From: Myotis daubentonii
Lineage: Eukaryota > Chordata > Mammalia > Chiroptera > Vespertilionidae
Length of the DNA stretch: 64,000 bases
Assembly (NCBI RefSeq): GCF_963259705.1
Contig: NC_081844.1
Coordinates: 13,315,715-13,379,714 of the forward strand
Reading direction: 5' to 3'
This document shows, in pieces, positions 6,153 to 62,865 of the stretch. The position numbers and the translations under genes were made by a program. The notes beneath the pieces were generated by a model. It was not told the DNA's origin, ran no database searches, and was given only the letters and a program-made list of their open reading frames with translations. Positions within the stretch are counted from its first letter, which is position 1, and each line of letters starts with the position of its first letter.

Positions 6153-6616
6153 CTAGAGGCCCAGTGCACAAAAATTTGTGCACTCGGGGGTAGGGGGTCC
6201 CTCAGCCCGGCCTGTGCCCTCTCACAGTCTGGGACCCTTCGGGGGGACCACTTGCTGGCTTAGGCCTGCTACCCGGGGGATTAGGCCTAAGATGGCAATC
6301 AGACATCCCTCTGGCAGCCCGGCAGCCCTTGGGGGATGTCCATTTGCCAGCGGGGAGCAGACCTAAGCTGCAGTCAGACATCCTTAGCGCTGCTGAGGAG
6401 GCGGGAGAGGCTCCCACCACCACTGCTGTACTGGCAGCCCTCAGCCTGGCTTATGGCTGAGCAGAGCTCCCCCCGTGAGAGCACACTGACCACCAGAGGG
6501 CAGTTCCTGCATTGAGCATTTGCCCCCTGGTGGTCAGTGTGTGTCATAGTGACCAGTCATTCCCAGTCTTTCTGCTGTTAGGGTCAGTTTGCATATTACT
6601 CTTTTACTATATAGGA
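6153..6616 (-). mobile_element. HeliBat-type Helitron d, antisense
   Basis: It starts 'ctagaggcccagtgcac' with the subterminal palindrome and ends 'cttttactatatagga' before T. Internally it holds a divergent pair of CTCF-like motifs (6487-6503 and 6521-6536). It runs straight into unit e with the same kind of junction as b to c. Confidence 0.85.
6487..6536. promoter_or_regulatory. Divergent CTCF-like motif pair in Helitron d
   Basis: TGACCACCAGAGGGCAG on plus at 6487-6503 and the reverse-oriented TGCCCCCTGGTGGTCA at 6521-6536. Both match the CTCF core CCASYAGRKGGC. Binding is not shown. Confidence 0.45.
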
Positions 6617-12808: not shown

Positions 12809-13040
12809 CCCTAGCCGATTTGGCTCAATGGATAGAGCATCAGCCTGTGGACTGAGGGGTCCCGGGTTCCATTCCTGTCAAGGGCACATGCCCGGATTGC
12901 AGGCTTGATCTCCAGTAGGTGGCGTGCAAGAAACAGCCAATCAATGATTCTCTCTCATCATTGATGTTTCTATCTCTCCTTTCCTCTCTGAAATCAATAA
13001 AAATATATATAAAAAATAAATTTTAAAAATAAATAAAAAG
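12809..13040 (+). repeat. Ves SINE
   Basis: 'ccctagccgatttggctcaatggatagagcatcagcctg' head with tRNA-like boxes, TC-rich middle and an A-rich tail with AATAAA-type motifs. Near-duplicates 'acacttgcaa' and 'agacttgcaa' flank it. Confidence 0.9.
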
Positions 13041-21739: not shown

Positions 21740-22167
21740 CTAGAGGCCCGGAGCAAGAAATTCATGCATGGGTAGGATCCCTAGACCCAGCCTGTGATCA
21801 GGGCCAATCTTCCCCAGCAGCCAGCCCTGCCCTCCTTCCCCCTCCCCCCTACCCCAGTTGCCCTCTGTGTGTGGGGCAACTGGCGGGGCGATTGGGGCCC
21901 TGCTCACACTTGCCTTGGCCTGGTGCCACCCACGTCCACCACCACCCACTCCCAGTTCCCTATTCCCCATTGGGTCATTGGAGCCTGCTGGCTAGGGGGA
22001 GCGACTGAGAGGTTGGCCAGCAGGCCCCCCGATCAAGTGATCAGGGTCTGCAGGCTAGGCACAGCTCCTGCATTGAGCGTCTGCCCCCTGGTGGTCATTG
22101 CATGTCATAGCGACTGGTTGTTCAGCCATCCCAGTCGATTTGCATGTTACACTTTTATTATATAGGA
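21740..22167 (-). mobile_element. HeliBat-type Helitron f, antisense
   Basis: It starts 'ctagaggcccggagcaagaaattcatgc' and ends 'cttttattatatagga' before T. It contains one CTCF-like motif at 22081-22097. Non-autonomous. Confidence 0.88.
22081..22097 (-). promoter_or_regulatory. CTCF-like motif in Helitron f
   Basis: CTGCCCCCTGGTGGTCA on plus, the reverse of TGACCACCAGGGGGCAG, a full match to the CTCF core. Confidence 0.45.
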
Positions 22168-29208: not shown

Positions 29209-29330
29209 CACCCCCAGTAGGGGGCATGCAGGAGGCAGCCAATCAATGATTCTCTCATCATTGTTTCTCTCTCTCTCTCCCTCCCACTTCTTCTCTGAAA
29301 TCAATAAAAATATATTTTAAAAAGTTTTAA
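29209..29330 (+). repeat. Ves SINE, 5'-truncated
   Basis: It begins inside the element at 'cacccccagtagggggcatg' and ends 'aaatcaataaaaatatatttt'. Confidence 0.85.
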
Positions 29331-29913: not shown

Positions 29914-30388
29914 TCCTATATAATAAAAGCCTAATATATTAAGTGTCCGGTTGTCTGGTGGGCTGTTGAACCAATCAAAGTGTAATATGATAATGATATG
30001 CTAAGGTCACTCAATTACTCACTATGACATGCACTGACCACCAGGGGGCAGACAGTCGACCGGTTAACCAGTTGCTATGACTTGCACTAATCACCAGGAG
30101 GAAGATGCTCTGACCAGTACGTGATCTTGCTGCTGGGGTCTGGCCAATTGGGTCTGAGTGAGATGGGCCGGACACACCCTGGAGCCCTCCCGCGGTCCCT
30201 CTGTGGCTGGCCAATCTCCCATGTCCCTCCCTGGCTCCGATAATGCACTGGTGGGGTCCCTCAGCCTGGCTACGCCCTCTCACAATCCAGGACCCCTTGG
30301 GGGATGTCAGAGAGCTGGTTTTGGCTCGATCCTGCAGGCCAGGTTGAGGGATCCCACTGGTGCACAAATTCATGCACTGGGCCTCTAG
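29914..30388 (+). mobile_element. HeliBat-type Helitron m
   Basis: 5' TCCTATATAATAAAAGCC after A, 3' 'gtgcacaaattcatgcactgggcctctag'. It carries a full CTCF-like motif at 30035-30051. A second, shorter Helitron follows directly. Confidence 0.92.
30035..30051 (+). promoter_or_regulatory. CTCF-like motif in Helitron m
   Basis: TGACCACCAGGGGGCAG, full match to the CTCF core consensus. Confidence 0.45.
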
Positions 30389-36223: not shown

Positions 36224-39200
36224 CTGAGGGAGCAAGGGAAAGGAGACATGAGTCCTCTTTCTTCCCAAGCCTGCCTTCTCCTCCACATTTCCAGCTCTGC
36301 TTCAGCTTCTAGCTAACCTTTGCCAAGTGGAGGGAAGTGAGGCTGACGTATCCTCCCTTGCTTGCCTTGATCTGTTATACGCCAGCACTGACCTATCCCC
36401 AACACGTGGGTACTTGGCGCTCAATAACATTTGTTAAAGGAATGAAGGCAACCTACCAGAGGCCATTCCGGAATGACCGTCACCCACTCAGAAGTAAACT
36501 CCTAAGTATAAACCGGAACGCTGCCTGTTTCCCCGCTCCACCCCGGGCGGGGAACGGAGGAAGGCTCACGCTCCCATCAGATGAGAAGGCCCCCTGCGCC
36601 GGCTCCTTCCCGCCGAAAGCTGCCCTAGCCTTCATGGTTTCAGGAAGAACCAAGAATCGAGCAGTGACACGTCCTATGGGAAACTGTCCACTAAAAAGCC
36701 GGGAGGGCCAAGGCTGCGTTCCCACGAGGGTGCTCTCCGGCCCCAGGGCCCATACCTCTGAGGAGCTCCGCTGGCTGCTTTTGGGGGGAGGGGGAGGAGG
36801 CACAGGAGCAGTCACCAGCGCATCTGTCTGCAAAGATGGGGAGCCTAGAAAGGAGACAAAGGAGATGAAGACAACGAATTCATAAGGAATCTCATGGAAC
36901 TTCTGGTTGCCAGGTAACACCTGAACCAACCAGCCAAATTGCTAAGCTCACAGTCCATGCTTACTGCGGACGGAATGAAGACCTGCTCACCCCTAGCGAC
37001 AAAGGCAGTGCCCTCCATTCCCCGGAAGGCTTCACAGGAAGTTCTGCTGTAAAAATTCCACTTTTCGTTCAGGGTTTTTACCATTAAACTGATGATGAAA
37101 ACGTTTCCTAGGACTTAGGGTATTACTCTGTTCTCTGACGTCCCCCAAGTGCTTAAAGTCACATAATAGGTGGCCTATAAGTACGAGTTAAATGTAACTG
37201 AACTGTCTGTTCTATCCTTTAAAGGGTACGATACCCACTTCCTCCAGGAAACCTCACCTGCTTCTCTCTAGCTCTTGGTTGACCAGTCTCCCGTTTGGCG
37301 CAGCGACTTACCCTGCAGCGCTCCCCTTACCAAGGGTGCCTTGGAATTCTCCTCAGGCCGTGTGGCCGCGAGGAGCTTATGGGCCTATTTCTTGCCCTCA
37401 CTTTGGACCCTTCCCTAGGTAAGGTACAGGGCTATCTAGTCAGTAGGTCATAAGGAACTTGCATCCTCTCTGGTCCTGCCTGGATCTACCTCAGTTAGAC
37501 TTTCATAGTTGGAAAGGGGAGTGACGCCCCGTGGAGCACTAAAGAAAAGGTTAATGAGTCCTAGTAACCGGAGGGCTCCTTGGTTTGGTGAGGACTAGTC
37601 TAACTGCATTATACCCATGACCACTGAACTGGACCAGCTTTGCATATACCTTGTGGCTATTTTGGTAAAAAATTGCTCAGATTCATAAATACACTCCATT
37701 CTTAGTAAAATGAATATAAGGGATTCATATACAGGAAAACCTACTGCCCTAGCTGGTTTGGCTCAGTGGATAGAGCATCAGCCTGTGGACTGAAGGGTCC
37801 CGGGTTCGATTCAGGTCAGAGGCACATGCCCGGGTTGTGGGCTCGATCCCCAGTAGGGGGCGTGCAGGAGGCAGCCAATCAATGATTCTCTCTCATCATT
37901 GATTTTTCTCTCGCTCTCCCTCTCCCTTCCTCTCTGAAATCAATAAAAAAATATTTAAAAAAACCAACAACAAACTTACTTAGGGTCCTGGTAGCTTTAG
38001 GAGTGAGGGGAGGCGGGCTCAAGGGTGTTGACGGAGGAGGTGAAGAACCATGAAACGGTGTCAGCCGACTGTCCAACAGCTGGAGACTCTTGGGCCTTTG
38101 TGCTTTTCTGGCTGGACTCTAGCACGGGGGTGGGGGAAACAGGAAAATGTACTCACGGTGAGGACGGCTGAACTCATCAGTGCTGAACAACCTTGTCTGC
38201 TGAGCAGAAACGTGTTAAAGGCGTAATTCCAGGAGCCATTTCAAGCTTAGCACATTCCCATGAGGTGGCCACCCTGGCAAAGACACTAACAGCAATTCCG
38301 GAACCACAGAGTGCGTCCTGGCCGGCTGTGGACTTGGTTTTGACCACAGTTGGATTGTGTCATTTAGGCTGGAAGTGAGCCACCCTGATTCTCAGGGAAA
38401 GCTGGTCTAGCCGCACTTGATGTGGCTTTACGGAAGGAAAAGTACCTTTTATTTTTTTTAAGTTAAAAGAAGAGAAATGACAATGTTTAGACGGACTCAT
38501 GGAACATGGTGGCGAGAACCACATGTTTACACTGTGGCCAAGATCTTACGCCATTGTTGACTTAGAGACTCAGATTCTCTGAGCAGGCTTTTCTTAGCAC
38601 AGGCTGAGAACTGCCCCTGCCACCGGCTGCGGGGCCTGGGAAAGCCATGGCTAGGCTTCTGTCTGCTGACTCGGAGCTGTGAGGAGAATGGCGATGTCCC
38701 TGGCTACAGGGAATGCTCTGGAAAACCTCTGTCACGTCCCCCCACCCCTTTTCTTACCATCAGGTCAGGCTCTGGCGCTTTCTCTGCAATGACCTGGGAC
38801 TTGCTCATGCTCCATTCTTTTCTCTTGGACTTGCTGATCCGGTTCTCACTGTCCTCTTTGAGGGGCACATCTTCCACTCGGGCACCTGACGAGGCCCTGC
38901 GCTCTACAAGTGGCTCCAGGACCGACCTATCAGCAGAGAACACGGACATATCACTAAACACTGGTCACCCAACAATCCAAATTTACTCCAAAAAGACCAG
39001 GGGTGATGACTCCTTAACCTAATCTTGACCTGTGACCTCCCTCTCAGGTTCTAAAGCTGAATTTCCAGCTGCCAACTGAACTTCTCAAGGTAAACATGTA
39101 CAGAAGTGAGACCATCCAAAGTACAGGAAGAAAATATTAGTGACTATTTTATCTCAGGAAGAGAAGGTCTTATTAAACTTACAGGCAAAGACAGAAGTCA

Positions 39201-42200
39201 CACAGTAAAAGATCAATGGGCAGCTTTGTGTAGAAGATAACAGCACATGCTCTGCAGTCAGACAACCGTGTCCAAACCCTACCTATACTTACTTGTTGGA
39301 TGACCTTGGGCAGATAACCTTGCTATACCTCACTTTCCTGATCTGTAAAATGGGGGTATTAATAGTACCTTCCTTGTAAAGTTATTACAAAATAATCTGA
39401 GTCTTCCTTAAATGGTTTTTAATGGCAATGAGAGATTTTCAAGCACAGCAGTAAATGTTGATTCAAGAACCAAAATTAGATCCTATGTATAGAGTGAGTT
39501 TTATGAGAAACAGGAGAGTCTCAAAATATCACTCCACAAATTATTTCTTTTTATTTACAAAGGGAAGAATAGTAACTACACAGAAAATAAATGAACAAAC
39601 CCTTAACCACATGATCAATTAACATCACCATTAAGAGAAAAAAGGACATAATGTGCTTCTGGATATAAGACCGGAAAAGAACTCATCACACAAAATTGTA
39701 TAACCGAATCCTAAGCATAAGGAAACTCCCGAGTGAAGGGAGGTTCCATGAAACAACTGGCTCATAATCTTCAAAGATGTCAATACTGTGAAAGACAAGG
39801 AAAGACTAAGGAAACTGTCCTAATAAAGAACAAAGAGACATGGTTAAATACCATATATGATCCTGATTGGATCCTGTGCCTGAAATTGCTATAAAAGACA
39901 TTGGAAAACTGACAAAACTGCAATATGAGTTGTAACATAAAGTATTATGTCAATGTCAAATTTCAGGCTGTTCTGCAGGGAGTGGTTATCTATATAATAA
40001 GAGCCTAAGTGACCGTTATGGGAGAATGACCAGAACGACCAGTTGCTATGATGTGCTCTGACCACCCAGGGAGCAGATGCTCAATGCAGGAGCTGCCTCC
40101 TGGTGGTCAGTGTGCACCCACGGCTGGCGAGTGCAGTGGCGGTGGCGGGAGCCTCTCCCACCTCTGCAGCAGTGCTAAGGTGAGCGAGCAGGTGAGCCGT
40201 AAGGAGCGAGGGGTCCTGGACTGTGAGAGGGCGCAGTGAACAAATTTCATGCACCGGGCCTCTAGTATAAGATAATATGCCTGTTCTTACATTATGGTGT
40301 CTGTAACCTAAGCTCAAATGGCACAGTGAGGTAAGAGGGAGGGGGAAAGACGGAGAAGAGAAACAAATGTGCCAAAATGTAAAAAATAAAAATAGAAAAT
40401 TGGGGGGGGGGACGCTTGAAAAGATAACATCTTTATGATGGGTATCATTTAGAGCTTAGGAATGGGTATTTATTTATTTTTTAGCCCCCTCCCAAGGATA
40501 TGTTTACTAATCTTAGAGAGAGAGAAAGGGAGACAGAGACATATCGATGTGAGAGAGAAACATTGACCAGCCACCTTTTGTACACACCCTATCTGAGGAC
40601 TGAACCCACAACCTGGGTATATGCCCTGACCGGGAACGTTTTGGTGTATGGGATGACACCCCAACCACCTAAGCCACCCAGCCTGGGCTGGAATCGGTAT
40701 TTAATAATTCCTAAATTGATTTAAAATTGGTAGGTTTTGCTTCATAAAAATAAGAAGTGTGGAGGGATGCACAGGTAGAGCGCAGAGGGCTTTTAGGACA
40801 GTGAGATCATTCTGCAATGGTGCATGCATGTCATCACACATGTACCAAAACTCAGAATGTACGCCACCAAGAGTGAAGCCTAATGGAAACTATGGACTTT
40901 GGATGGTAATGATGTGCCAGTATCGGCACCTCAACTGAAAAAATACGCCACTCTGGTGGGGGATGCTGACAATGGGGGGGCTGTGCGCGTGGGGGCAGTG
41001 TATATGGGAACTCTCTGCACCTTCTGTTCGAACTCACTGTGAACCTGAAACTGCTCTAAAAAATAAAGCCTTTATAAAAAGACATTTTTGCCGAAACCGG
41101 TTTGGCGCAGTGGCTAGAGCGTCGGCCTGCGGACTGAAGGGTCCCAGGTTCGATTCCGGTCAAAGGCATGTACCTGGGTTGCGGGCACTTCCCCAGTGGG
41201 GGATGTGCAGGAGGCAGCTGATCGATGTTTCTCTCTCATCGATGTTTCTAACTCTCTATCTCTCTCCCTTCTCTCTGTAAAAAATCAATAAAATATATTT
41301 TAAAAAAAATAAAAAAATAAAAAGACATTTTTGGTATGAATAAGAGAATATAAAAACTACAGCTATCAGCTCTTAGTATCTAAAAATTAAAAGCTTCTGT
41401 TCAGCAGAAAGCATCATTAGTCAACTGAAACTATTTGCTATACATATTTTTTTAAGTTGATTTGAGAGAGAGAGAGACATTGATTTGTTGTTCCACTTAT
41501 TTATGCAAGTATTGGTTGCTTCCTGTATGTGCCCTGACCAGGGATTGAACCAGTTGGCAACCTTGATGTATTAGGACGATGTTCTAACCAACTGAGCTAT
41601 CCGGACAGGGCTGCCATACATATTTTTGATGGCAAATATCTTTAATATATGAGGACTTTTACAAATCAAAAAGGAAAATATGAGTAGTTAAAATATTTTA
41701 AACTTATCAAAGGATAGAAACAAGTGTTTCATAAAAAATATACAAAAAATTTTTAAAATTTTAGTGTCACCAGTTATTAAACACACAAGTATTAAAACAA
41801 GATATTTGGAGAGGATAATCTGGAAAAAATTTTTTACATTTTATTTTGAAAATTTCCCAACATATAAGAAAGTGGAGATGATAATAATAAACTTCTATAT
41901 ACACATCAAAAATGATCACTTACGGCCGAGCTTGTTTCTTACACACCCAGTCTATTCCCGCCCCCATAGATTAGCTGGAAGTGACTCTTGGGTGTCACAT
42001 CATCTCATCTATAAATATTTCAGTGCCTATTTCTGTAAGACAAGCCCTATCTTCTTAACTACAGTCCCGCCATCATTCCTAAAAAAGTAATCATTTCATC
42101 TAACATCCAGTCAATGGTCAGATTCCCTGATTGTCTGATAACTGTTTTTGTAAGTGGTTTGTTTGAGTCAGGATCCAAACAAGATTCATTCAATGTATTT

Positions 42201-47459: not shown

Positions 47460-50400
47460 CAAGGAGATTTAATCAAACCACTATGCTGTACACCTAAAAC
47501 TAATACAAAATAATACTGAATGTAAACTATAATTAAAGAATAAAATTTCAAAAAACAAAGGAGAAATTACAGGAAACATTCAACTCATATCACAGACATG
47601 GCCAACATCCAACAGAAAATGTACACAAAATATTTGACCACAGTTCATAGAAAACAAAACACAAACAGCTACTAAACAGGTGAAAGAATGATAAACTTCA
47701 TACAAGATAAATAAAAAAAAAATCCCTATTCCAAGAAAATATTTTCCACCTACCAGATTGGCAAAAATTAAAAAGACTGGTAATATACAATTTGGTGGCA
47801 AGGTGCAGGTGACCGACCAGGCATGTATGTTGCTGGTGGGACTGTAAATTGGTATAATCTCTATGGAAGTCAGTTTAGAAATAATTTTGGAAATTGCAAC
47901 TATATAGGTTTGACAGAGCAATTTTACTTTGGGAATTTTTCTCATGTGGATATATTTATATATTTGAAAAATAACTGATTTTAAGATTCCTAGTTGCTGC
48001 ATCAACTAAATGACCACCAACAGGCTCTGGTGGCATGTACCCAGGGCAGACATACCACAACATGTCTGCAGCTCGAAGTAAAGAGGGGCTCTCTCTGTCC
48101 TGAAATGGAATAATTTACAGATCTCGTAAGTGCAAAAAGCAAGGGAAACAGAGTATTACACGCTGCTGTTCATAGAATAAGACAGTGTGGGGAGAAATGT
48201 GTGTTGAGGTATTGCTGTGCACCTGTGAGGAGCTGCTGGAAAGGCAGCAGGAACCTGGACGCTAACATCGCCTGCCTCTGCAGAGCGGCACTGGTAAGCG
48301 GGGAGGCAGGGGTCCGTGGGAGATGCTTCATGATAAAGCTTCTTGTACCTTTGGAATTTCATATCTTGGGGTTAGATGAACTATTCATGAAATAAATTTA
48401 ATTTTAAAATTATTTTTAAAAATTAAAATGATAAAAAATGAAGCAATAACTACAAGTTATTGTGAGAAAAATCAATCAGAATGTGATTAGGTCCATGTTA
48501 GGATGTGATACTGTTATGGTTCCCTCTCTCCCCCACCCCTGTTTTTCATAGCTGTTGTTATCATTATGTAAATAATGGTATTCCTCATGAGGGAGAAAAT
48601 AAGAATGACCCAAAGGCTAATAACCCATGAACTCTGAGTTATTTCCCTTGTGAGGATAAGTATCTACATTGACCAAGTCTCACTTTGGTAACAAAAGTAA
48701 ATATTGGAAAGGAGTTACCCCGCCCCTCCTGGCAATTAAAGATCAAACCCTTACCCATCGGATCCTGGCCTGGAGGAAGCATTGTCAGATGAGTTGGAAG
48801 AGGTGGAAATCACAGAGGACGTCACCGAGGTGATGGACAATCTCCGCAGCGTAGACGACATGATGTAGGGCAGCACAATGGACCCCGTGCGGCTCTGCTT
48901 CCTCTCGGTCAGGTTGGGTGGCTGGAGAACACGTGCCCCTCCCGGTTAGCTGGCCCAGAACTCAGCCCAGAGGAAGGAGTGCAGGCCTCCTGTTTGCTTG
49001 TGGCAAGTGCCCAACTGTATTGGCTGGCACCCCATTCTGATTGGTTGGTGACTGTGCTGCCTCAGTTGTTAAATAATGAAGCACTTATATTCTGATTTAT
49101 AAACACAACTTATGTTAAACCTACTTTGTTTCTAAGACTAGAAAAAATACACCGTAATTTGCTGTCAGCCACATGAGAGAGAAATAACCAATATGTTCGC
49201 CCACCAATAAAAGAGAAAAATCCTCTGCCTGCTTTTTCAGATTTGCTTCTTTCAGGCATTAAAAAAAAGTGGAGTATTATAAACATCATGCAGCCAAAGA
49301 GTAAGTTGGGATCATAGTACTGGTCTAGTGTTGTCTCATTGGTCATAATTTACCACTGGCCAGCCTCCAAATTCCCATACAGAAAAAAAAAAAGAAAAGA
49401 AAGAAAAGGAATATTGGCCTAATAGAAAAGTTTTAGACTGAAACTGCAAACCTGAATCTCAACCTGGCGAATCTCAGGGAGTCAGGGAACACTGACCTAT
49501 CTTCATGAGAAATTTCTCAGTGGGCACTGAACCCTACATGCCACCATTTCAAATTTACATGCTAATGTTGACCTGGGTCTAATCGAAACCAAACTCATGC
49601 GGTGGAAGTCACAGTCTCTGCCTGCCATCTAGGAATTTGTGTGGAAGACAAATTTTCCTAGGAGAAAACTCCTAACTGGTGGTAGGTTAGGAGGCAAATT
49701 TCAGGAATTCATGATTGAGCACTCAGATGACGGAAAGCGATGATCAAACAGACTCTCTGGAGAGAAAGGCAGTGGAGATGGAGGCACGGGAAGAGAAGAG
49801 AGAAGTGCAGAAAAGAAATCTAGAGCTTGATTTGAGGAAGAAAATCTGAAAATCGGAGGTTCCGGAATAAGGCAGTTAAATAGAGCAGGTGAACTCACGT
49901 TAAGAAGAGCAGATAAATGAAGTGGGACCAAGCAAACAATTGACTGCTGAAAAGGTTAGCACATGCACCCCCCCACCCAACTTCTCAAGAGGAAAAACAG
50001 AAATTTGTTGCTGTGAGAAATGTGTTAGAATGGTCAAAAAATTATGAAATCAGCTACAGGCATTGCAAATGTCCTTCACAATTCTTTCTCACTTCAAAGG
50101 TGTCAAGAGTGAAAGCTTATCAAAATAAAAATATATTAGAAAAAACTGTAAGAATTGGGCTACGTCAGGACAGGAACAACCAGTTTCTGGGATCAGGGGC
50201 ACCTCAACTTCTAACAGAGTCATTCTCAAACCGCGGGCCCTGCACCAGCCGCATCAGCACCACCTGGGAGCATGTTAGCAGTGGAAAATTTTGGGCCCAC
50301 CCCAGAGCGATTGAATCAGAAACCCTGGGGATGTGGCCCAGCAGCTTGTGTTTTCACAACCCTTCCAGAAGGTTATGAGGGTTGTTCAAGTTGGAGAAGC

Positions 50401-53400
50401 CCTTGGTGGCGGGAGGATGGGAGAAGGTCAACAGTAGACCATGGCTTCTCTGACGTTCCACCCCCCCCACCACCACCTGCCCCTTATTTTCATGCCACCT
50501 ACGCTACTTTGGCTCATTTGGCATCTGAAAAACCAGTCAATACTGTAAAAGGTAAGAGAACAGAGAAAGCTGAAAGGCTACGTAGACAAAGCCTACCAGT
50601 GTGATAACCCCATAGAGCCGTTCCACTTTCTCCTTGAGCTCCCGGAAGCAAGAGGACAAACGGTTGTGCAGCGGCTTGAGCTGCTCCGTCAGCTTCTCCC
50701 CATGGATGCGGATCCCCTCTGTCAGCAGGGGCATCTGGAAAAGGGCATGGAAAGACTGCAATGTGGTTCGGGATGAGGGATCATTCAGATTCGGGGAAAG
50801 ACGAGGGCTGGGGATGGACAGGTAAACAGGCAGACACAGCACATATCAAATGAGAAAGCTACTTGTCAGTGCAGTGCTTGGGAGCTGAACGCCTTGAGTC
50901 AAAGAAGCAGAGAAATGCATGCCCCATGGACACAGGCGAGCCCTAAATGGCGGAGGGCTGCCAGACAAGGCAAACCCATCTGAGCCCGGGCCTTTCTGTG
51001 GATGAGCAGCGACAGGCTTAAGCCTTCGATGGCGTGGATGGCTGCACTCTCTCCCACTGTTCACTGAAGGAGTGAGAAAGAGAAAGACAGGCCAACGTCT
51101 CTCAGGTGACACAGGCCTAGAGTCTCATCTCTAAAAAGGCCCCTCTTAACACTGTGCAGTCTAATGGATGCTATTCCTAGGTCGCTTTGCCAAACAAAGG
51201 GATAGGTTGTGATGCCATGGTGCTTTTTTAAAAAAGGGAAAGTAACCCTAAAAGTGAGCCGTAGATTTGAGCCCTGGAGAAGATGTTACGCTCGTGCACC
51301 ACAGCCGCCCCCGGAGGGCAGTGGGAGCTGCCCAGCCACACGCCACCCGCGGGCACACCTGTAACGCGATCAGCCTCTTCAGCAGCTCGATCTTCTCCTG
51401 GTCTTCGGGGTGCTCCTGCAAGTACTTTTCTGTAAAAAAAGCCTGAAAGCAGAGCACATGGGAGCGTTAATGAGAACACATACCTGTCTGTGTATTTGGC
51501 CCTAAAGGAGGGAGGGGAGCCTGGGAGGCTGAAACATGCCTTCTGTCCTATGTCATAAACCAGGAACGGCTAAGTAACAGCACAGCCCGCATCCATAGTG
51601 AACAATTCAAAAAAGCAGGTGCTATTTTGTGGTCCTTCTGGAATCATGCAGTTTCTACCAAGAGCACATTCGTAACAATAAACAAACACACACACACACA
51701 CACGCACACACACGCACACGCACGCACCAATCAAGTAATCAGGAGCAGAGAAGAATGTCATCCTTTTTTTTTTTTTTTTGAGGAGGGGGAGGTTGGGGGG
51801 AGGGCGGAGTAGAAGGAGGAGGAAGGGAAAGGCACCAGCTTGCTCCTGGAGGGAGAGCTAGAATGTCATTCCTTAAAATAACTATTCCAAAAAACTAAGA
51901 AAAGGCCAAATGACCATATCAAAAAGTTATGTGTCAGATTAAGTACACAGGTATTATAAAGAAGAGAGCAAAAAATTAACAGACTGGAGATGTGGCTGAT
52001 GGATTTTCTGCTCTATCACGTGATACAGACTGCACTATAATTTTTTCCTATATTAAGTGAAGATTAGTACCTGTATTTTATTACTAACCACCTATCCAAA
52101 AAGCTATTTTGAGGACAATATGAGACAAAGATATAAAATGTTTTGAAAATGTTAAATGCATTTATTACATATCAAAATTACATCACCTATAACATAATCA
52201 TTAAAAATTCATAGTCCCATGGCCAAGGCCCTGTAATAGGAAAATAAAACTCAAACTATAAATATAGGAGTTACACAGATCATCTAAAAGACAGAAGTCA
52301 TTAGGAAAGAAAACTGAATTCTATAGTGAACATTTCCAATAAGTGTTCACACTGGGAGTTCTATATTTTCTCCTGGTACCTTCATTTCTGAGCATGCTTT
52401 CAAAGACCAACCTTCAAAGAACTCAGTTAGCAATGTGTTCTCATTAACACTCCCATGTGCTCCATGCCTAGGAAAGCCACCCTATTACATACAAGCCGAG
52501 GGTTCCCGAAACTACAGGACACAGTTAAAAAGGTGGTCGGCCCATTTGGTGTGGACAACAGAACATGCACAAACTCTCTCCTTGTGGGGAGATGTTATAG
52601 GTTGAACTGTGTTACCCAACCCCCACCTCCACCCCAAATTCACATGGGAAATGACACCTCGGGGTGTGACCTTTTAGAAAGGGGTACTGTGGAGACAGAC
52701 ATGCACGCAGGGAAAAGACTGTGTGAAGAGAAACAAGAAGACAGTCATCTACAAGCCAAGGAACCCAGAGACTGCCTGCCCGTCACCGGAAGCTAGGAGA
52801 GGGGCAGGGCTCCTTCCTCACAGCCCTCGGAAGGACATTTCCCCAGCCACTCATTCTAGCGAGATTCTTAATCAGAGGGACTGTTGATATAAATGAAAAA
52901 GTAGTATTTGCTTAAATCTTCATCTACCTTCAAATACAAGCAGTTTAAATTTTTGACAATTCAAAAAATTTTTCTGATATCTATATATATAAAAGCCTAG
53001 GCGACCGTTATGACTGGACGAATGGCTGGTAGCTATGATGCACACTGACCACCAGGGGGCAGACGCTCAATGCAGGAGCTGCCCCCTGGTGGTCAGTGTG
53101 CTCCCACAGCCAACCTCCTGCGGTTGGCCAATCTCCTACAGTCCCTCCCCCTGGCTGGCCAGCCCCCATCAGTCCAGATCGGGACTGGGTGAGATAGCCC
53201 CGATTGGCCCTGATTGCCAGCAAGGCCGAGGGACCCCACCTGTGTACAAATTCGTGCACCGGGCCTCTAGTATAATATAATGCAACAAAATTCCCAATAG
53301 CACCTGAGGGCTTCTCCACCTCCTGCTCCTGAGTGGCAATTGGGACAGTCACCACTGCTTGCACCTGCTGCTGGCACAGGCCCCAATTGCTCTGTGCCGT

Positions 53401-56400
53401 CAGGTGCGAGCGGGGCAGGCGCTGCCAGTGTGTGGGAGCAGCAGTAGCAGGAGTGGGGCTTCAGTGGGAGGGGCCAGGCAGGGGCGCGGAGGATGGGCCA
53501 AGACCAGCCCCTGTGCCCACCACAGCCTCGCGGCCCACAGTTCCTTTCAAGGTGCATGAATTCATACACTGGGATCCTAGTTATAGTATAAAAAGGATGG
53601 TATTTTGGATCCCAGTTTTTTATTGAATTCCACTGTAACACTAGAAATTATTACTGAAACATAGCAAGGGCAAACTGGATTTTACTGCTGGTGGTGAGAA
53701 TCAGCCCACTTAACGTCCACTGGCCCTTCCCATCCATCTTCCCCCGACCACCCGTCAATCTCCAGGATAGTGCACAACGGGGTACTAGCCAAATGTTTAT
53801 TTTCAAGAAGAGGATTCCAAAATTATTTAGCCACTAAAAATGTACCTAACAATTACAAAGCCTGCCTCTAGTAATTAGTTGACCCTTAAACAACGAGGGG
53901 GTTAGGGACACTGAACCCCACAGTCGAAAATCCCTGGAAATTTTTTATTCTACAGTGTGCCCTTCGTGTCCATAGATTTAACCAACTGCAGGTAGAAAAC
54001 TATTTTTGAGCTGTATCTGGGAATGTGAAAGTACTGCTTTCTATTCGTAATTGACTGAATTCACGGATGGGAAAGCCAGGGATCTGAAGGGCCAACTATA
54101 CTTAATGAAAACTTCCAGGTGGAAGTGGACCTGCACAGTTCAAACCTGTGCTAGTCAAGGGTCAACTGGATCCTTAATTGGACTTTACTTACTGGATGCA
54201 TCCCCTCCATTGCAGATGGTGCCACCCCAACCCTATGCAATGGAGCACAGGGGAGCACTCCTTTCCTGTGTCCCCCGAGGAGCAGATACAACACTTAGTT
54301 GAGCTAATTTAGTTGTAGAGCCTGGCCAGCATTTGTCCACACATCCTCTGGCCCATCAAGTGGGGGTGGGATTCCTAGAGGCTAATTCTAAACAAAGCGT
54401 GCTCTGCTTCCCCCACACACGCTGCTCCACTCCCAGAGCGTCCTCAGTGGTCGGCCCACCTGCACCCTTACACCTCCCAGGGGAGGTGCAGGGGGAGAGA
54501 ATAGCAGGTGAAGCAACTGGAGACGGTATGTCTGACTGATCTTTCAGTGACTCTTCTCCAGGCAGTAGCCTAACCCAGGCGGGTTGCTGAGGGTCTCCAG
54601 GAGCTGTGAGGTTGGGGACAAGCTTTTCATTAATTTCACTTGGCTATTCATATAAAAAGGGGGAATGAAAGTCTCTCAGAGAAGTGGTAAGAAACGAATT
54701 CATCAGCTGCACAATGCCACAGAGAGGCATGGAGACACCCAGATCTTTGAGTCCTGTGGGGTCCCGGGAACTCAGCCTACCTTCTCTATTGTTTTCTTTT
54801 TTTGTTAACCCTCACCCAAGGATATATTTTCTATTGATTGTTAGAGAGAGTAGAAGAGAGGGAGAAAAGGGAGAGAAAGAGAGAGAGAGAGGGATTGGTT
54901 ACCTCCTGCACATGCTCCTGCAACCCAGGTATGTACCCTTGACTAGTAATTGAACCCAAGACCCTATGGTGCGTGGGCTGACACAGTAACTACTGGGCAA
55001 CACTGGCCAGGGCGACCCAGCCCACCTTTTCATAGTTGGAGTATCCCCCCATGACGGCCGGATCTACGATGCCATTGAGCAGCATGGAGAGAGGATGCAC
55101 AGAGAGGGACCGGTCCCAGGCATGCTGCTGGACGCAGTTGCTGATCTTCTCATTGGTGAGTTCCATGGTTTCGATGGCATTCTCCAGAGGACTGATTTCC
55201 TCCTGTGACAGACAGCATGGGAGGGGAAGGACACTTCGTGAGCTCCACAGCTGGAAAAAGCCCAAGTATTCCCCTAACAAGGTATAAAATTCCCACCAAC
55301 CAAAGAAGAGTGAGCTTTTGCTGGTCAAAGTTATGTTTCTTAGGATACCGTACTTATTTGAAATGGTGTTATAAGTTGCAAAAATAAGCTTTTAAAAGTT
55401 TCCTTTGAAAGTATATAAGGGTGGCTTAAATATCGGAGCTATAGAATGATTATTTGGGGGCAAAGCATCTACAGAAATTCTGAGAAGAAAAAAGTTGGAG
55501 CTATAATAATGATGGTTTCTTAGGCAAAGCTTCCTTAGAAATTTTTGAGAAAATCAGTGACAACAGAGTAACAGGATATCTGATCCAAGACAGAAGCACC
55601 ACCACAAATGTTCACTGCTTCTCCCATGAGGAAAGGTAAAGGACTTTAGCAGCCAGACATTCAGACTATACACAAGTCACCTTAGTATGGGTTCTGTGGT
55701 TAAGAGAAGTCAGAAACAGTGGGATGCATTAGGCTATTCAGGCTGAATTTTGGATGAAAATAAGATGTAATAATAGATTCAGAGAGAGACCTTCTTGTAG
55801 AAATCTCTTCAAAACCAGGTTTTAAGAAAAACTGTCTCCTTCCTCATTTTATCCATTATCATGGGTAATTATCCCCTAATCTTCTCCAGACTTGATTCTA
55901 AGAGTCTCTGTCTAAAAATCATATTCATCCTTAAAGAATAATGATATACACCAGTGGAATGAGACATGCAAACCCCAGTTTAGATTTGTGTAAGTCCTTG
56001 AATGCTTACTTATGTACCACAGTAACAAAGTGATTAAGATATAATTCATGGCTGGGAGGAACTTATGATTTCAGTGGGGTCTCAAGTCGCATGAACATGG
56101 TAAGCAGCTCATTAGAAAGAAGTGCAGGAGGCGATGGGCAAAGAGAAAGAACCTCTAAGCCAGCTTGGGAGTTTCAGAGATGGCTTCCCAGGGAAGCTGG
56201 TGCCTATATGGAATCTGAATGGGAGTGAGTTAGGTTGAGAAGTGGCAAGAAGGCATTCTGGGTAGAGAAAATGCCCCAATTTCACAGGTAGTTAAAATAG
56301 CATGGACTGAGCAGTTTAGTTCCAGTAGAGTCCATCAGAGATGGAAGAGCTGAGTCAAAGAGACCCTGTGCTCAGGCGTATGCAGTTTACACTCTAGGCA

Positions 56401-62655: not shown

Positions 62656-62865
62656 TATATATATATAAAAGGCTAATATGCAAAGTGCCCCCGTGGGAGT
62701 TCAACTGGGAGTTCTATTGCTCACTATGATGTGTGCTGATCACCAGGGGGTGGCGCAGAACGAAGGAAGGAACCGGCCAGCAGCCAGAAGGCCCTGATCG
62801 GCCCTGATTGCTGGCCAGGTCTAGGGACCTTACCCAAGCACGAATTTCGTGCACCGGGCCTCTAG
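62656..62865 (+). mobile_element. HeliBat-type Helitron i, in tandem with h
   Basis: 'tatatatataaaaggctaatatgc' start directly after the CTAG of h, and 'cacgaatttcgtgcaccgggcctctag' end with an intact subterminal palindrome. It has a decayed CTCF-like motif at 62737-62755. Confidence 0.93.

Follow-up and report, generated by a model that had tools for sequence, protein, structure and literature searches.

Near-consensus CTCF-type motifs, including a convergent pair, in the 5'-terminal module of Helibat-type Helitrons of Myotis daubentonii

The assembly of Myotis daubentonii contains a real and very abundant motif module, for which a CTCF function is predicted. The reading preferred here, at a probability of about 0.6, is that a CpG-free and near-consensus module was amplified by rolling-circle transposition, that its palindrome probably arose in a one-off snap-back event, and that the intact copies would be CTCF-competent and a minority of them bound. 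The binding, the snap-back and the arrest of cohesin are the parts of this reading that we infer.

Element j and its palindrome

Element j (52980..53270, plus strand; 291 bp) was recognized as a non-autonomous Helitron of the Helibat type from its sequence, termini and related copies; the window is the whole stretch of 64,000 nucleotides that was analyzed. It starts with TCTATATA at 52980, and thus with the TC of Helibat-type 5' ends, and its last CTAG, the corresponding 3' end, is completed at 53270. The flanking nucleotides are A at 52979 and T at 53271, at this one site indicating insertion between A and T with no target duplication. A short palindrome at 53242..53259 (plus strand), identified from the sequence, the consensus and the description of Helraiser, is followed by the final 11 nt of the element; its consensus is GTGCACGAATTCGTGCAC and then CGGGCCTCTAG, and in j it has decayed. 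An element of 291 bp has no room for a Helitron transposase.

When j was compared with the window by BLAST, its positions 1–131 were matched by element l and positions 33–128 by element d. The 5'-terminal module (LTS; 52980..53110, plus strand) is common to j and l, and beyond it the bodies differ. In the assembly, the 39 other copies scored match j at 79–87% identity. Element j lies within an intron of a minus-strand DOCK5-like gene, whose exons on either side are near 55023–55211 and 51356–51445 (coordinates derived from protein matches). The DOCK5-like exons were found at 50594–55211 of the window, minus strand, with DOCK5 as the best PDB matches. Near them, at 49271–49384, there is also a SNORA23 match of 86.9 bits, which is possibly, as a guess, a retrocopy.

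Within j lies a perfect inverted repeat, the 23-nt arms of which (53040..53062, plus strand, and 53079..53101, minus strand) are 100% complementary and separated by a loop of 16 nt (53063..53078, plus strand). Each arm includes TGACCACCAGGGGGCAG, at 53046–53062 (+) and 53079–53095 (−). The original prediction of a motif and its exact inverse 16 nt apart was thus correct, the repeat being longer than claimed. Also the proposed match to the CTCF core held: in a scan with matrix MA0139.1, on which a maximum of 28.7 bits is possible, the forward motif (53046..53064, plus strand) scored 23.4 bits (p = 6.5e-9) and the reverse motif (53077..53095, minus strand) 23.3 bits (p = 7.5e-9). The two predicted sites are therefore near the CTCF consensus (p about 7e-9), and the motif core contains no CpG. 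By the convention used for CTCF, a forward motif on the left and a reverse motif on the right are convergent (-> <-). Read in this way the predicted pair of j is convergent, the opposite of the divergent pair that had been claimed, and a palindrome of such polarity reads convergent from either strand.

An inverted repeat of this kind could, if transcribed, form a hairpin RNA from which small RNAs are produced. The RNA fold of the palindrome is stable (−55.7 kcal/mol, z = −9.8), and transposon-derived miRNAs have been reported from vesper bats, but most miRNA precursors have no perfect stem of such length. Furthermore, no Rfam family reached its gathering score at the j palindrome, the best sub-threshold match being MIR9783 with 37.1 bits against a cut-off of 100, and a known RNA family at this place was rejected. 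We regard the processing of the inverted repeat into small RNAs as very improbable.

Abundance in the window and the assembly

Eight sites with at most three mismatches to the 17-mer were present in the window, compared to an expectation of 0.21, and none of 100 shuffles reached eight. The recurrence predicted for elements d, f, m, l and i was found in every one of them (d 6487/6520, f 22081, m 30035, l 40093, i 62737). Element d (6482..6541, minus strand) has the palindrome with both motifs (6487/6520) and 21-nt arms that are 95% complementary, while element f (22079..22097, minus strand) has a single motif and, as read by eye, follows the palindrome through no more than the first 3 nt of arm 2. 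Element m (30035..30104, plus strand) combines the motif at 30035 with a decayed direct copy at 30088 (4 mismatches), 53 nt apart, and element l (40060..40109, plus strand) a decayed arm 1 at 40060–40076 with the arm 2 motif at 40091–40109 (minus); the second direct copy of m and the partner arm of l are additions to the earlier account. The motif of element i (62737..62755, plus strand) is single and decayed, with three mismatches and 18.0 bits.

In the whole assembly (2.13 Gb) there were 47,644 exact copies of the 17-mer (23,792 + 23,852), a high copy number for a transposon carrying candidate CTCF sites, and a reversed-pattern control gave 0. Both arms were exact, with a spacer of 12–20 nt, in 5,261 places (reversed-pattern control 0), each of which matches on both strands and was counted as one place. 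The spacer was 16 nt, that is 33 bp start to start, in every exact-pair place among those listed.

An unselected sample of 200 kb of the assembly, composed of 20 stretches of 10 kb taken at round coordinates and blind to content, two from each of ten large contigs (274 N), included 14 matrix matches at p < 1e-6, 11 of them in Helitrons with the motif module. At p < 1e-7 there were five matches, and all five were in such Helitrons. When 200 column-permuted matrices were run on the same 200 kb, the mean numbers of matches were 0.74 (maximum 8) and 0.045 (maximum 1) at the two thresholds, respectively, and 20 Markov resamplings of the sample gave means of 1.05 and 0. At the level of the sequence and for near-consensus motifs, the idea that Helitrons have scattered CTCF motifs genome-wide was supported, and the matches were in excess of both resampled sequence and permuted matrices. 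The sample holds ten motif-bearing Helitrons, six of them with an inverted pair; left out of this count were three places (L033:2557, L034:7668 and L037:3379) with four mismatches each and no Helitron end near, which were taken as chance matches. Extrapolated to the whole assembly, the 11 sites found in Helitrons at p < 1e-6 correspond to a number of about 117,000, with a 95% interval of 58,000–209,000 that reflects this basis. A regular expression for the 5' end gave fractions of 7/44 in the sample and 3/7 in the window, but because it also matched many A/T-rich places outside Helitrons these values were not used. As to spread into viruses, the viral contigs gave no exact match to one 19-mer.

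Two other repeat groups were considered as rival sources of the motif. SINEs with tails that we take to be of the Ves type were rejected: one tail pattern matched 26 times in the window and sample together, with 25 of the scores below 12.5 bits and one of 15.5, and two further window sites with these tails scored 15.4 and 14.4 bits. In the window, presumed Ves-type tails with CCAGTAGGTGGC or CCAGTAGGGGGC and 14.4–15.5 bits on the CTCF matrix are those at 12909–12927, 29211–29229 and 37847–37865. L1 elements were rejected as well. They came into question from AAAGACCACTAGGGGGTGCACC, which scored 17.8 bits on the CTCF matrix at L032:6766, L040:7584 and L128:112, and which by eye sits just upstream of an apparent L1 ORF1; it is possible that a bat L1 has here, in its 5' UTR, a site of the CTCF type.

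Decay, subfamilies and origin of the palindrome

Decay was followed in 40 copies, j and the 39 scored from 3,476 candidates, which are the best matches to j and thus a non-random set. Divergence from their consensus was 37% in CpG columns and 6.6% in non-CpG columns outside the arms. The non-CpG columns of the arms were 4.9% divergent compared to 6.35% for all non-CpG columns, a small and non-significant difference in these 40 copies (one-sided P = 0.093, random column draws), and host constraint on the arms was rejected. The scores of arm 1 and arm 2 were not correlated across the 40 copies (r = −0.002). The arms thus decay near-neutrally and independently, with no clear sign of host selection. 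In the literature, vespertilionid genomes are described as consisting of 6–10% rolling-circle elements with 6–11% divergence (PMC13003292), and this divergence agrees with that of the 40 copies.

The original prediction was to be considered refuted if, once decay was allowed for, the motifs of the consensus did not score above expectation. The consensus of the 40 copies instead has two strong sites on the CTCF matrix (23.4 and 23.3 bits), and at p < 1e-6 both arms were kept in 22 and at least one arm in 36 of the copies, a survival that is compatible with neutral decay. That the motif is still intact is largely due to the absence of CpG from its core, which so escapes the 37% divergence of the CpG columns, and its intactness is therefore no evidence of selection. 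For the same reason CpG methylation within the core should be unable to block the site.

These results bear on a further reading, in which the motif exists but is inert, as it resembles a CTCF site by chance and was amplified by a prolific transposon, lies in silent chromatin and is rarely or never bound. Near-neutral and independent decay of the arms is what this reading would expect, and among the many transcription factor matrices and repeat families a strong match would be expected somewhere by chance. Silencing of CTCF sites is known for the B2 elements of mouse, and silencing could keep also the Helitron sites unbound. Human and macaque are reported to have no such repeat-driven CTCF expansion (PMC3368268), and carrying CTCF sites is therefore no guarantee of their use. 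On the other hand, the consensus sites reach 23.4 and 23.3 of the possible 28.7 bits, the core offers no CpG to methylate, and for the CTCF sites that SINEs carry, binding was demonstrated in mouse, rat, dog and opossum (PMC3368268). On balance we find inert motifs somewhat unlikely, and amplification of a CTCF-competent module the better account.

The Helitron_like_N domain (PF14214) gave 150 scored matches from 471 candidates in the assembly and was found in 0 of 14 control genomes. Autonomous copies with a Helitron transposase, which may have moved j, are thus present in the same genome. Five autonomous copies (L128, L129, L130, L131 and L132) were compared over their upstream 2.1 kb. The 5' end is visible in L129, to the terminal region of which L131 and L132 could be aligned from position 45 onwards; L130 and L128, aligning only from positions 351 and 1088, are uninformative on the terminus and were left out. 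The palindrome motif was absent from the terminal region of all three informative copies, which was covered up to the end in L129 and from about position 45 in L131 and L132, and the palindromic module is thus no part of the terminus in those autonomous copies. L132 includes a different CTCF-like match, TGGCCAGTAGGGGACAG (18.6 bits, offset 208), at about position 250 of the element and beyond the terminal 150 nt, and L129 has a match of 13.2 bits farther in and a weak match to the 17-mer upstream of its end. Because of these other matches, autonomous copies cannot simply be called free of CTCF-like matches.

From the matches listed, 60 exact-motif copies were inspected, comprising the first 20 elements and then the 40 following sites at which no exact inverted partner was present, and all 60 lie in the same Helitron 5'-terminal module. 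Membership was decided by CTATGA shortly before the motif or the CTCCTG of the mirror arm just after it, with one mismatch allowed; 58 copies were assigned by this rule (43 to arm 1 and 15 to arm 2), and the remaining two, L069 and L075, were placed by eye. Among the first 20 copies, a Helitron 5' end could be recognized at a distance of up to 300 nt in 15, and an inverted partner with at most four mismatches is present in 10, one of these with the loop deleted. In L075 the loop is gone and the arms nearly abut, possibly through a hairpin deletion.

The distribution of the inverted partner bears on an alternative in which the palindrome serves the transposon, as a plus-strand hairpin that aids transposase binding, strand displacement or second-strand priming, and the resemblance to CTCF sites is incidental. 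In eight paired copies the first arm begins 66–80 nt from the 5' end, inside the terminal sequence of about 150 nt that Helraiser needs (PMC4778049, PMC5876387). Folded as single-stranded DNA, the j palindrome reaches −33.6 kcal/mol (z = −9.6), which none of 200 shuffles equalled, while the 3' hairpin region of the same copy reaches −8.9. The conserved unit is also wider than the CTCF core, as it extends upstream over a stretch (CTATGA..GCAC) that CTCF does not require. Nevertheless, the other 10 of the first 20 exact-motif copies and 4 of the 10 Helitrons of the unselected sample have no inverted partner within four mismatches (L034, one of the four, has a decayed one by eye), although these subfamilies have multiplied, and the three autonomous copies with a readable terminal region lack the motif. 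The stem gave no clear sign of compensatory change either: in the 40 copies 8 of 15 double changes keep pairing, and 801 of 913 pairs are maintained compared to 790 expected, hardly above chance. In the available description of Helraiser, a hairpin is assigned to the 3' end only (PMC4778049). The structural role for the inverted arms that had been put forward earlier is thus weakened as a general requirement, and a palindrome kept for transposition with an incidental CTCF match appears unlikely to us.

Copies without the partner fall into several groups when their junctions are read by eye. GAGCTGCC is followed by RTGACGYGCACTGGCC in L071 and L092, with L079 and L090 similar, and by RAGCTGCGGTGAC in L080, with L069, L088 and L094 similar. 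A third group, including L085, L093, L098 and the similar L081, reaches 8 nt into arm 2 and then continues with AGCCC, and a fourth (L091, L095, L101 and L124) departs before the end of the loop, into TAGGTTAGCTTGCTGC or near it. Inside the TAGGTTAGCTTGCTGC group the motif unit is present as direct repeats 53 bp apart, with two units in window element m, L043 (5353–5422) and L105, and three in L107. Subfamilies with different bodies (L071, L090 and L092; L080 and L120) share an exit from the module after the first 5 nt of arm 2, CTGCC, as judged by eye. Their common exit suggests that CTGCC existed beforehand and paired with GGCAG in a short stem, the long palindrome then being produced by snap-back. 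On these junctions, the palindrome would have been gained rather than lost.

Under the preferred reading, then, a 5'-terminal module common to many non-autonomous Helibat-type Helitrons holds the near-consensus, CpG-free CTCF-type core, and rolling-circle amplification produced tens of thousands of copies of it. The inverted second copy in the commonest lineages probably had a single origin, when a displaced single strand with the short GGCAG/CTGCC stem already in place was copied by snap-back, and the resulting palindrome provides a built-in convergent pair with a spacing of 33 bp; direct repeats 53 bp apart are the form in which the unit was multiplied in another subfamily. Intact copies, whether methylated or unmethylated, may be competent for CTCF, and CTCF or CTCFL could bind at the palindrome. 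The minority of copies in open chromatin, thousands of sites, would be bound in vivo, and with both arms bound a single element would halt cohesin from either side. Some Helitron copies would start out accessible, since Helraiser, when newly inserted in human cells, prefers promoters and open chromatin (PMC4778049).

Related systems and meaning of the finding

The likeness to Helraiser as described in PMC4778049 includes the 5' TC, the 3' CTAG, a short 3' palindrome with 11 nt following (that of Helraiser measures 19 bp and also precedes the end by 11 nt), an insertion site between A and T, and huge non-autonomous subfamilies. The difference is that the hairpin of Helraiser is there described at the 3' end only, while the present elements have an extra and longer 5'-terminal palindrome with CTCF-type arms.

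Transposon-borne CTCF motifs are already known. The B2/B3 SINEs of rodents, SINEC_Cf of dog and MAR1 of opossum are lineage-specific repeats that, like the present Helitrons, have spread a CTCF core motif through a mammalian genome (PMC3368268), but they are retrotransposons with demonstrated binding, whereas the carrier here is a rolling-circle DNA transposon with at most two predicted sites in a fixed convergent order. The ISX Helitron of Drosophila miranda, which dispersed dosage-compensation motifs, is similar in being a Helitron that spreads motifs for a chromatin-associated complex (PMC6598467). In ISX, however, this is the dosage-compensation complex on an insect neo-X, while the present motifs are of the CTCF type, genome-wide and in a mammal. 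Among the matches listed from the open-licence PMC literature, no paper joined Helitrons, CTCF binding and bats or described a built-in convergent pair; PMC9446614 mentions both Helitron and CTCF, the latter merely as an RT-qPCR target. The Helitron carrier and the built-in convergent pair look new.

Closely spaced sites are known as 2xCTS, clustered CTCF sites at which co-occupancy by CTCF and CTCFL/BORIS is possible; the promoter of TP53 has a palindromic CTCF pair that was assayed with CTCF in vitro, and the CTCF motifs of TSP50 are 33–58 bp apart (PMC4562119). In SVA elements CTCFL binds clustered sites (PMC5007689). The two predicted motifs of j, 33 bp start to start, similarly fall within the width of one peak, and the comparison extends to the palindromic arrangement in TP53 and to the ability of clustered transposon sites to attract BORIS (PMC4562119, PMC5007689). 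The known cases differ in that they are promoters or tandem repeats of SVA, whereas here the pair is fixed in the terminus of a DNA transposon, at which BORIS binding is hypothetical.

In another reading, the transposon itself would be adapted to the germline through the paired motif, a 2xCTS for CTCF and its testis paralog CTCFL that would keep the 5' terminus nucleosome-free where transposition must occur. Multiplication of the unit along two separate routes, as an inverted copy and as up to three direct units, would then be accounted for, and so would its terminal position in many subfamilies, but we hold this reading to be quite improbable. If it is true, a two-way cohesin stop would be the by-product of each intact copy, and vesper bats would carry thousands of portable, direction-independent loop anchors.

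Returning to CTCF-competent copies spread by rolling-circle amplification, the 47,644 exact 17-mers approximately equal all the CTCF sites bound in one mammalian cell type, reported as about 50,000 (PMC9442299). The identical pairs, broken pairs and single motifs form a natural mutagenesis set, from which the effect of a close convergent pair on cohesin, and the tolerance of such sites through silencing, may be learned. If even a tenth of the copies were bound, the loop map of the genome would have been remodelled by a DNA transposon.
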